From: a virus
DNA: 21,659 nt
Direction: 5' to 3' (one strand)
Virus record (IMG/VR): IMGVR_UViG_3300047300_000661
Location: 1-21,659 of that record
The translations under genes and the position numbers were made by a program. The notes beneath the pieces were generated by a model that saw only the letters and a list, made by a program, of their open reading frames with translations, was not told the origin of the DNA and ran no database searches. Shown here one piece after another: positions 1,554 to 3,345 of this stretch; within the stretch, counting starts at the first letter, position 1, and every line of letters begins with the position of its first letter.

Positions 1554-1559
1554 TTGTTG

Positions 1560-1645
1560 CTCCTGTCTTTGTGGGCTTGGCGTGGTTGCCTTGCCTCGTG
1601 CCCTAGTCTGTCGCGAGCAGGTGCCCTCTGTCAAGGGGCTAGGGC
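1560..1645 (-). ncRNA. Structured leader A of the gene at 1143-1553
   Basis: Read on the - strand, the gap between two genes contains a 7-bp closing stem (1639-1645 with 1600-1606, GCCCTAG/CTAGGGC). It encloses two hairpins: CCCT/AGGG (1634-1637 with 1624-1627) and CTG/CAG (1618-1620 with 1608-1610). Then follow ACGA and a hairpin at 1574-1595 (two GGC/GCC helices) with loop AACCAC. The ribosome-binding sequence AGACAGGAG (1560-1568) lies eight bases before the ATG. The gaps at 1790-1884 and 2134-2232 have the same order of parts, with different stem sequences. Pairings were made by eye. A leader controlling translation or mRNA stability is inferred. Confidence 0.6.
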
Positions 1646-1651
1646 TGTGGG

Positions 1652-1789
1652 TTAGTTGCCCACGCTTACAACTCGCACCGATTGCTTTAGGCTTTCGGCT
1701 ATCTTGCGGAACTCTGCGAAGTCTTCCGCGCTGAGTGTGTTCGTACTAATCAAACCGCTTCCGCCGTAGAGGTTGAATGTGATTTTCAT
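1652..1789 (-). CDS. Hypothetical protein, 45 aa
   Basis: The product is MKITFNLYGGSGLISTNTLS followed by an amphipathic helix (AEDFAEFRKIAESLKQS) and a short strand (VRVVSVGN). The predicted beta-turn-alpha-beta layout resembles a tiny single-domain fold. The ORF is open further upstream, but the ATG at 1789 is chosen because AGACAGGAG sits about seven bases before it, and translation upstream would run through leader B. It is flanked on both sides by structured gaps. No family is recognised. Confidence 0.72.
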   Translation of the reverse strand: MKITFNLYGGSGLISTNTLSAEDFAEFRKIAESLKQSVRVVSVGN

Positions 1790-1795
1790 TTCTTG

Positions 1796-1878
1796 CTCCT
1801 GTCTAAATTGGTGGAAGAGTTGTTTCTCCCACTCGTGCCCCGCCGAGTCTTGCTCTCGGTTGCCGTCTAGGACGGGGC
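1796..1878 (-). ncRNA. Structured leader B of the gene at 1652-1789
   Basis: This has the same layout as leaders A and C, read on the - strand. The closing stem is GCCCCG/CGGGGC (1873-1878 with 1837-1842). Inside it are a possible short hairpin CGTC/GACG (1871-1874 with 1864-1867, competing for two bases of the closing stem) and a hairpin CCGAG/CTCGG (1855-1859 with 1843-1847). ACGA follows. A hairpin at 1811-1832 has outer stem GTGG/CCAC and inner GAG/CTC, and its loop region carries AACAAC. The segment ends in AGACAGGAG (1796-1804) before the start codon. Confidence 0.6.
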
Positions 1879-1884
1879 GGCGTG

Positions 1885-2133
1885 CTAGTTCTTGTGCTTC
1901 TTTGCTCCTCCGTGATAGTGGAAGCCCTGCTCTGCGATTTTCTTTGCCTCTTTGAGTGCTTCCCAAAGTGCTATTTCGTAGGAAGGAAACCCGAAGCCAA
2001 GTCCTGCCGTTCCTCCGCACTTGCAACCCTTTGGGACGAAGTGGAACTCGTACTCTGTGGCGTTGCTCTTGATGATGTGAAACTGTCCTTCTGTGAGGTT
2101 GTCTAGTTCTGTCTTTAGGTCTGTCGCTAGCAT
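1885..2133 (-). CDS. Hypothetical protein, 82 aa
   Basis: The start is supported by AGACAGGAG seven bases upstream. The N-terminal half (LKTELDNLTEGQFHIIKSNA) is helix-turn-strand. A short CKC motif (C37, C39) sits before a Gly-rich loop (GGTAGLGFGF), then an Ala/Lys helix and a His/Lys-rich tail (FHYHGGAKKHKN). The two cysteines alone do not make a zinc site, although the C-terminal histidines could contribute ligands. No family is recognised. It lies between structured leaders B and C. Confidence 0.75.
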   Translation of the reverse strand: MLATDLKTELDNLTEGQFHIIKSNATEYEFHFVPKGCKCGGTAGLGFGFPSYEIALWEALKEAKKIAEQGFHYHGGAKKHKN

Positions 2134-2140
2134 TTTCTAT

Positions 2141-2224
2141 CTCCTGTCTGTTGCTCGGTGAGTGGTTTCTCCGAGTCGTGCCCCTCTAGGTCGTGAACCT
2201 TCGCCGACTGAATCGGGGAGGGGC
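2141..2224 (-). ncRNA. Structured leader C of the gene at 1885-2133
   Basis: This is the cleanest copy of the repeated layout on the - strand. The closing stem is GCCCCTC/GAGGGGC (2218-2224 with 2180-2186). Inside are hairpin CCGA/TCGG with a 5-nt loop (2204-2216) and hairpin AGGT/ACCT with a 5-nt loop (2188-2200), giving a three-way junction. ACGA follows. A hairpin at 2154-2175 has outer stem CTCG/CGAG, inner GAG/CTC and loop region AACCAC. Then comes AGACAGGAG (2141-2149) before the ATG. Compared with leader B, the outer stem of the last hairpin changes on both sides (GTGG/CCAC versus CTCG/CGAG), a compensatory change that supports a real RNA fold. Confidence 0.65.
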
Positions 2225-2232
2225 GGGTCTGT

Positions 2233-2557: not shown

Positions 2558-2587
2558 ATCTTCTCACGCGGGGCGGGAGCGTGTCAA
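2558..2587 (-). promoter_or_regulatory. Candidate promoter of the leftward operon
   Basis: On the - strand a perfect -35 hexamer TTGACA (complement of 2582-2587) is followed after 18 bp by GAAGAT (complement of 2558-2563), a weak -10 matching three of six consensus positions. Transcription from here would start near 2550 and include leader D. It is the only good -35 seen upstream of the leftward genes, and tandem operator-like repeats lie just behind it. The -10 is poor, so confidence is limited. Confidence 0.35.
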
Positions 2588-2603
2588 ACCCAAACGAGCC
2601 TTT

Positions 2604-2623
2604 TTTGGTAACAGTTTGGTAAC
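2604..2623. repeat. Tandem operator-like repeat TTTGGTAAC x2
   Basis: TTTGGTAAC occurs at 2604-2612 and again at 2615-2623, a spacing of 11 bp or about one helical turn, so both copies face the same side of the DNA. The pair lies about 17 bp upstream of the candidate -35 box of the leftward promoter. The placement fits a binding site for an activator or repressor, either phage- or host-encoded. Confidence 0.5.
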
Positions 2624-2690
2624 GTTTTCCTGAAAGAATCCTGAGAGCCGTTCCCCCTCTGTCTGTCGATTTGTCGACAATTGAAAAGTG

Positions 2691-2720
2691 ATTGAAGTTT
2701 CAACTATTGAAGTTTCAACT
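2691..2720. repeat. Tandem 15-bp repeat with internal dyad
   Basis: ATTGAAGTTTCAACT is repeated exactly at 2691-2705 and 2706-2720. Each copy contains an inverted repeat TTGAA-GT-TTCAA, the form of a dimeric repressor half-site pair. A GTCGA-containing direct repeat lies just before it (about 2665-2679). Any reading frame through it would encode a repeated VETSI, but no convincing gene covers it. A regulatory operator cluster for the divergent region is the preferred reading. Confidence 0.5.
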
Positions 2721-2845
2721 ACCTTCCCCCGATTCCATTGCCCCCGTGATTTGTGGAGGGGAGATAGTTCACTCAACTAGATTCCCGAATTAGTTCCTTT
2801 GTTTGCTCTAACTCTTCGGATTATTAGAACCAAAGTCTGCATTTA

Positions 2846-2861
2846 GTTATCCACAGATAAC
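2846..2861. promoter_or_regulatory. DnaA-box-like dyad
   Basis: The sequence GTTATC-CACA-GATAAC is a perfect 6-bp inverted repeat and contains an exact consensus DnaA box, TTATCCACA (2847-2855). A single box is weak evidence for an origin, and the dyad could equally be a repressor operator. The AT-rich stretch that follows from about 2930 would suit an unwinding region. Confidence 0.4.
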
Positions 2862-2895
2862 CCTAACCGTCAGGTATAGGTTGAGAGTTTCCGAG

Positions 2896-2916
2896 AACCC
2901 TCAGTCGGTGAGGGTT
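2896..2916. repeat. Hairpin, 8-bp stem
   Basis: AACCCTCA (2896-2903) pairs perfectly with TGAGGGTT (2909-2916) around a GTCGG loop. It is not followed by a T run on either strand, so it is not a standard terminator. It lies between the DnaA-box-like dyad and the AT-rich hairpin cluster. Confidence 0.5.
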
Positions 2917-2982
2917 TGAGGGGGCATTGATTAAAATCGGTGAGTTGTATGTATATATAGTCACAACAAATTTTTCTGTTAT

Positions 2983-3011
2983 AAGCCCTGTGACCAGGGC
3001 TTTTATATATA
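2983..3011 (+). terminator. Terminator-like hairpin without an upstream gene
   Basis: AAGCCCTG (2983-2990) pairs with CAGGGCTT (2995-3002) around a TGAC loop and is followed by TTATATATAT. On the + strand this is a reasonable intrinsic terminator. No + strand gene lies upstream within the window, so it may terminate or attenuate a leader transcript, or act as a DNA structural element. Confidence 0.4.
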
Positions 3012-3034
3012 TTAGCCCCCTATATAAAAATATA

Positions 3035-3280
3035 TTGAAACAGAATGTTCGGAATACCCGTTTCCAACGGGTTATCTTATATAGCAAGAACTTAATAAGT
3101 TCTAGCGAACTTCGCTTCGCTAGGGCTTCGCTCAGTTCGATATAATATATAAATATCGAACCTACTTCGTAGGAATGCGCCAGAGTTATGCCGTTTTATA
3201 ATTGGCGTTATTATCGTTATTTTTGCCCCCGCCAGGGGCACAGGTACAGACCCAGAGAAGACTGCAGAATACTCCTGGGT
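3035..3280. repeat. Dense hairpin cluster upstream of the terminase gene
   Basis: No convincing gene. Successive inverted repeats almost touch one another: ACCCGTT/AACGGGT (3056-3072); AGAACTT/AAGTTCT (3087-3103); CTAGCGAA/TTCGCTAG (3102-3123); GTTCGATAT/ATATCGAAC (3135-3161); CCTAC/GTAGG with TTC loop (3161-3173); TGCCCC/GGGGCA (3224-3240); ACCCAG/CTGGGT (3250-3280). CTTCGCT-type direct repeats overlap the third hairpin (3110-3132). A TATAAT (3141-3146) lies in the fourth and could be a -10 box for the rightward genes, without a good -35. Possible roles are a structured late-mRNA leader, an origin, or the packaging recognition site often found beside terminase genes. Confidence 0.55.
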
Positions 3281-3281
3281 A

Positions 3282-3334
3282 CCCACGGACACGTCCCTGA
3301 GACACCCTTATGGTGTGGACCAAACGCCCGTGGG
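3282..3334 (+). promoter_or_regulatory. Large stem-loop ending 11 nt before the terminase start
   Basis: CCCACGG (3282-3288) pairs with CCGTGGG (3328-3334). Inside it GTCC (3293-3296) pairs with GGAC (3317-3320) and ACACC (3302-3306) with GGTGT (3312-3316). The 11 bases between this structure and the ATG at 3346 carry no Shine-Dalgarno sequence, so the stem-loop may affect terminase translation. Alternatively it may be part of a DNA packaging site. Confidence 0.5.
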
Positions 3335-3345
3335 ATTTTATTTAG

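Follow-up and report, generated by a model that had tools for sequence, protein, structure and literature searches.

Along the leftward run of small genes that starts at position 2505 on the − strand of the window (the whole 21,659-nt stretch of viral DNA analyzed here, from IMG/VR record IMGVR_UViG_3300047300_000661), four early genes are separated by three gaps of 95–99 nt that share one common layout, which raises the question of what a structured element repeated at successive gene borders does for the genes around it. Read on the − strand, each gap contains a three-way junction, the tail ACGA, a hairpin with an AACNAC loop, the motif AGACAGGAG and the ATG of the next gene, in that order (Table 1). 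This layout had been described in an initial annotation of the gaps at 1554–1651, 1790–1884, and 2134–2232, and all of its parts were recovered at their positions on the − strand, including the junction span of 42–46 nt. The annotation had missed that in each of the three gaps the junction starts 6–8 nt past the upstream stop codon, that gap 1 has an additional hairpin around that stop codon, and that the leader of the first gene (2506–2560) carries the hairpin and AGACAGGAG with no junction. AGACAGGAG occurs five times in the window, always on the − strand, and zero times in a reversed-sequence control. Its fifth occurrence (248–256) lies ahead of a small leftward ORF (136–240) and is not accompanied by a junction. 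A Pfam search of the four early genes returned no domain. The roughly 800 bases at 2560–3340, from the leftward early genes to the terminase, hold several inverted repeats and no convincing gene, and this stretch is probably a divergent control region.

Table 1. Features of the early-gene run, in window coordinates; R1 is the covariance model described in the text.
Feature	Position	Strand	Basis or detail
Four genes bordered by elements	2233–2505, 1885–2133, 1652–1789, 1143–1553 (span 1143–2505)	−	Protein relatives in 7–9 other loci each
Predicted leftward promoter of first gene (TTGACA, 18 nt, GAAGAT)	2555–2587, approximate	−	Consensus match only
Leader hairpin of first gene, AACTAC loop, no junction	2526–2548	−	Sequence
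tRNA-shaped three-way junction, copy 1	1600–1645	−	P1 GCCCTAG/CTAGGGC, 46 nt; R1 match 1596–1645 including tail, 57.5 bits, E 5e-10 (R1 seed)
tRNA-shaped three-way junction, copy 2	1837–1878	−	P1 GCCCCG/CGGGGC, 42 nt; R1 match 1833–1878 including tail, 25.1 bits, E 0.013 (not a seed)
tRNA-shaped three-way junction, copy 3	2180–2224	−	P1 GCCCCTC/GAGGGGC, 45 nt; R1 match 2176–2224 including tail, 70.5 bits, E 5.5e-13 (R1 seed)
Tail ACGA	1596–1599 (copy 1), 1833–1836 (copy 2), 2176–2179 (copy 3)	−	R73 C74, position 75 never C
Leader hairpin, copy 1, AACCAC loop	1574–1595	−	Folding, sequence, class covariation
Leader hairpin, copy 2, AACAAC loop region, GTGGGAG/CTCTTCCAC	1811–1832	−	Folding, sequence, class covariation
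Leader hairpin, copy 3, AACCAC loop region, CTCGG/CCGAG	2154–2175	−	Folding, sequence, class covariation
Upstream hairpin of copy 1, around stop codon, GTGGG CAACTAA CCCAC plus A at −1 (1646)	1646–1662	−	Sequence, class statistics
AGACAGGAG Shine-Dalgarno motif	1560–1568; also 1796–1804, 2141–2149, 2512–2520	−	Motif count

Further copies were collected by pattern search of viral contigs and of 80 terminase relatives. The first pattern was loose, most of its 68 matches being due to chance, and only matches with the closing stem were retained. A covariance model, R1, was built on a seed alignment of 14 sequences in one register, which match R1 by construction and include window copies 1 and 3. 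Searching 0.94 Mb with R1 gave 132 matches, and loci fetched with two more patterns gave 154 further ones; after short matches were dropped, 281 full-length copies remained (163 distinct, from about 155 loci, some of which may share contigs). As the loci were selected either for a similar terminase or with patterns derived from the elements, these counts are not a census, and R1 overlooks some copies, such as that in L087, which was found by pattern. The copies come from related IMG/VR contigs and from two isolated Planktophila phages, and whole-record searches found them in 31 of 36 related records. Four Streptomyces phages with terminases about 45% identical yielded no clear copy (best E 0.07).

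That stem sequences differ while pairing is kept, first noticed among the three gaps, is borne out by the seed alignment, in which 97.4% of cells are paired and both partners vary at 11 of 14 pairs. The covariation score was 0.723, against 0.188 ± 0.033 for shuffled alignments; none of 500 shuffles scored as high, and the signal was lost when the partners were slid. At pair 6–67, for example, 159 distinct copies comprise GC 53, CG 53, AT 37, and TA 13 (99.4% paired vs. 41% shuffled). This covariation is decisive for the junction structure being real. Folding energy separates the elements from shuffled sequence moderately in the three window gaps (z −1.7, −2.1, and −2.5), and over 160 distinct copies the mean z was −2.5 for the junction (mean energy −20.0 kcal/mol vs. 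−13.6 shuffled) and −2.5 for the downstream 40 nt. On these sequence comparisons the junction is a well-supported RNA family, in keeping with the repeated structured RNA first supposed. Since a covarying structure recurs at early-gene borders, the junction or leader RNA likely has a separate effect on the expression of each early gene. Of the roles in translation, processing, or stability initially suggested, processing would fit the anatomy best.

Placement of the copies follows the genes closely. All 92 copies in terminase-oriented loci are on the leftward strand, 0.84–2.67 kb upstream of the terminase. In 135 of 231 copies the stem starts 5–9 nt past the stop codon of a reading frame at least 25 codons long, compared with 5.5% of random nearby positions. 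One class of copies (class A), window copy 1 among them, has a hairpin around the stop codon, typically GTGAN-GNRA-NTCAC, which ends 0–1 nt short of the junction stem. Its loop-closing pair covaries (GC 12, TA 8, CG 6, AT 3) and its outer bases vary little; averaged over copies, the 24 nt upstream have more stable folds than shuffles (z −1.3). The base at −1, directly before the junction, is A or C and never U. As TGTGA-N6-TCACA, the class-A hairpin occupies 16 nt upstream of the junction (e.g., of L023:8246–8295 and of those in L098 and L104), and in L118 and L158 this sequence also lies downstream of it. It fits the binding dyad of CRP-family regulators (e.g., GlxR of actinobacteria). The GNRA loops and covarying closing pair favor RNA; a double use as a CRP-type dyad is conceivable.

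In outline, the junction is shaped like a tRNA minus its anticodon arm, with a closing stem of 7 bp in most copies, a D-like arm, and an adjoining T-like arm with a 7-nt loop. Within the closing stem, G1-C72 (or G-U), C2-G71, and C3-G70 are nearly fixed; the last arm sits 0–2 nt from the stem, and its loop has the consensus NNCR(A/C)GA. Acceptor-like and T-like layers, with the frequent mismatch beside the stem taken as one layer, total 12 in 46 and 11 in 39 of 92 distinct copies (85 of 92 together), so that the about 12 stacked layers and 7-nt loop of an acceptor and T arm mimic are present. Compared with UUCRANY in the same number of distinct copies, using a parser that accepts 7-nt loops only, the T-like loop has C56 in 83 and R57 in 88, A58 in only 41 (C58 in 44), and A instead of Y at position 60 in 74; a fully canonical T arm (GTGG-TTCRATT-CCAC) is found in a minority (L028, L042, L054, L060). 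The tail begins with R73-C74 in 162 of 163 distinct copies and position 75 is never C, giving R-C-(G/T/A) and not the RCCA of a tRNA 3′ end. ARAGORN found no tRNA in the window and none in 15 related loci, and the tRNA model RF00005 did not match the junctions tested. Two of the most tRNA-like copies gave chance-level scores only with Rfam tRNA-like families (TLS-PK2, tRNA-Sec, and mascRNA); the mascRNA match (RF01684) was to one copy, at 13.4 bits and E 2.7. A true or degenerate tRNA gene was rejected on the ARAGORN and Rfam results, and the anticodon arm is absent. We call the element tRNA-shaped, not a tRNA, because the likeness is partial (C58 in about half of the copies, A60 in most, never RCC, and the Rfam scores at chance level).

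The repeated leader of the initial annotation stands as a structured RNA at early-gene borders, but not as a single leader. Judged by how its parts are distributed among loci, it is composed of two modules: an intergenic junction soon after the upstream stop codon, and a leader of tail, hairpin, and Shine-Dalgarno motif. The compensatory change reported for the last hairpin extends to its relatives, whose outer pairs covary (96, 96, and 93% paired vs. 72, 44, and 42% shuffled). In related loci a predicted promoter (TTGAC, 16–18 nt, NANNNT; all promoters here are consensus matches only) is often followed, about 6 nt on, by ACTA, ACAA, ATAA, or AGAA, then the hairpin and the Shine-Dalgarno motif. 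Because these predicted promoter-driven starts resemble the sequence after junctions, the 3′ edge of the junction corresponds to a predicted transcript start. The two kinds of tail are not identical: G75 is found after 108 of 163 junctions vs. 0 of 21 start leaders (the latter read by eye), C74 is nearly fixed only after junctions, and start-leader tails differ, so C74 and G75 seem to belong to the junction. Tail and hairpin track the downstream gene family across gene shuffles (difference −0.131, interval −0.205 to −0.051), and the junction tracks neither neighbor preferentially (−0.032, interval −0.104 to 0.045). A tie of the junction to the upstream gene, toward which a first test leaned (127 copies), was gone in a larger one (223 copies) and was discarded. 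Genes downstream of junctions belong to about 70 families, and the gene content surrounding the elements is a mosaic. In L103, L117, L121, L126, L135, L142, and L145 (e.g., L142:4786–4834), a promoter-like sequence (TTGACA, about 17 nt, TATACT-like) comes straight after the junction and replaces the hairpin and Shine-Dalgarno motif, its −35 box lying inside the hairpin after the tail.

We propose, at roughly even odds (about 0.5), that the junction is a processing mark between early genes, at which a long message would be cut into single-gene messages. We infer that a nuclease would cut the 3′ edge of the junction, within or beside the RC(G/T/A)N tail; the promoter-driven leaders suggest something close to the cleavage at ACGA first envisaged. 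The downstream message would then begin with a short tail and a capping hairpin, nearly as the predicted transcript of the first gene does, and the GACAGGAG ribosome-binding site would come after that hairpin. A second cut is possible at the 5′ edge, where the stop-codon hairpin often abuts, and would free the junction. Both cuts together would leave hairpins on both new ends, the stop-codon hairpin forming the 3′ end of the upstream message, and such hairpins could stabilize the products. The tRNA-like shape makes two host enzymes the obvious candidates, RNase P for the 5′ edge and RNase Z for the 3′ edge; a phage enzyme is possible. Arguing for a processing mark are the covariation, the strict orientation, the spacing from the stop codon, the T-arm likeness, the R73-C74 tail, the match to promoter-driven leaders, and the linkage of tail and hairpin to the downstream gene. 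On the other side, C is never found at position 75, which would leave RNase P an incomplete RCC contact, and one class has its upstream hairpin directly against the stem, where it should hinder RNase P; the loop bases C58 and A60 are non-canonical, U is avoided at −1, the scores with tRNA-like Rfam families are at chance level, and the junction has no stronger tie to the upstream gene than to the downstream one.

Mitochondrial tRNA punctuation and the RNase III sites of phage T7 early mRNA are known cases of border structures that cut polycistronic RNA into units. The elements here are not functional tRNAs and their cutting is putative; typical RNase III sites have longer stems than they do. 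Further precedents are phage M3 RNA, phage C4 antisense RNA, T4 gene 32 mRNA, his operon mRNA, and other mRNAs, all cut by RNase P (PMC11143913), which have in common with the junction a tRNA-shaped stem and arm within a phage or messenger RNA. Those substrates are single cases, whereas here a family of putative substrates is repeated at successive gene borders. The narrower reading that a family of Ca. Nanopelagicales phages uses anticodon-less tRNA mimics as operon punctuation, excised by host tRNA-processing enzymes, is tentative and on present evidence rather doubtful. If true, one early transcript would be divided into mRNAs of one gene each, capped by hairpins, and mitochondrial tRNA punctuation would have a counterpart in bacterial viruses; the arrangement suggests a way for a phage to set early expression gene by gene from one transcript.

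A junction that stays uncut could instead be a compact, stable block past the stop codon, which would stop 3′ exonucleases or separate finishing from starting ribosomes and thereby insulate the genes. Its near and fairly fixed distance from the stop codon, its high stability relative to shuffled sequence, and the copies that close an upstream unit by standing directly ahead of a promoter are what such a block predicts, but it would leave the nearly fixed R-C-(not C) tail and the match to promoter-driven starts unexplained, and a plain hairpin would suffice; we hold it to be unlikely, if worth serious attention. A lower probability attaches to an uncut element acting as the binding site for a protein of phage or host origin (or for a tRNA-binding factor) that controls the translation or decay of early mRNA. 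The conserved loop positions and the AACNAC loop of the leader hairpin do resemble recognition sites, but no candidate protein was found, and with the same layout ahead of many unrelated genes the control would have to be general.

Action at the level of DNA, as a promoter or operator or as a cassette-end recombination site (like integron attC) with the RNA fold secondary, appears improbable. The mosaic gene content would suit it, as would the fit of the class-A upstream hairpin to a CRP-type dyad and the TTGACA included in the class-A D-like arm; against it, stem sequence is free to vary while pairing is kept (as at pair 6–67), every copy keeps the direction of the operon, and the upstream hairpin loops are mostly GNRA and not palindromic. 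A recombination site that acts as a folded single strand keeps a small probability. No common −10 sequence is present ahead of position 73, which, together with conservation of pairing and not of sequence, led us to reject a promoter. A compact junction ahead of start codons might also recall a small-molecule riboswitch, but several copies per operon and a ribosome-binding site outside the junction speak against this, and, because the downstream genes fall into so many families, we consider a riboswitch very improbable and set it aside.

No Rfam family reached its cut-off for the elements. The nearest is DUF2693-FD (RF02926), listed in Rfam as a candidate structured RNA of unknown function, which matched copy 2 at 30.8 bits (E 5e-4, under the gathering threshold of 44.5) and none of the other copies tested. 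The element has the same plan of a 7-bp closing stem, a short first arm, and an adjoining arm with the 7-nt loop AGCGAGA, so DUF2693-FD may be a distant relative or a look-alike; its model differs in having no downstream leader hairpin and Shine-Dalgarno motif, and an exact search of the viral contigs for a DUF2693-FD-like arm found none. Mu-gpT-DE (RF03012) scored 23.5 bits at 2503–2535, in the leader of the first gene, under its gathering threshold of 49. With mascRNA/menRNA (RF01684) the junction has in common the idea of a tRNA-shaped processing mark, and no homology is claimed; those RNAs are eukaryotic, have a degenerate anticodon region, and are cut from a longer RNA. A comparable arrangement is that of the start-associated sequences (SAS and ESAS) in phages of Cluster K (mycobacteriophages) and Cluster EF (Microbacterium phages), where a motif recurs at the ribosome-binding sites of numerous non-structural actinophage genes, a subset of which have a further element upstream. 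SAS consists of the 13-mer GGGATAGGAGCCC, and ESAS of 17-bp inverted repeats whose sequence is conserved (PMC3203893, PMC7302621); the idea that ESAS form RNA hairpins found little support from the Cluster K authors (PMC3203893). The present elements do not belong with them, the motif being AGACAGGAG and the stems varying with pairing kept.

Among named phages, OX376640 and OX376641 are closest; by their record titles these accessions are Planktophila phages LanE43AprE7 and LanE43AprF5, the first phages isolated on Ca. Nanopelagicales (PMC10202952). R1 found three copies in OX376640, a phage of Ca. Planktophila LanE-43 (1383–1434, 1749–1794, and 2159–2208, all on the − strand), and one in OX376641. 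A host search with the terminase and portal in genome contigs gave no match. The RNA family, without an Rfam match at threshold, thus occurs in phages of a highly abundant freshwater bacterial group, and the element is present in two cultured phages of a cultured host. In many of the contigs a small protein beginning MTKKDYELI or MTKKDFELI recurs straight after the element (e.g., L007:4220–4266, L023:7843–7889, and L058:6515–6564).
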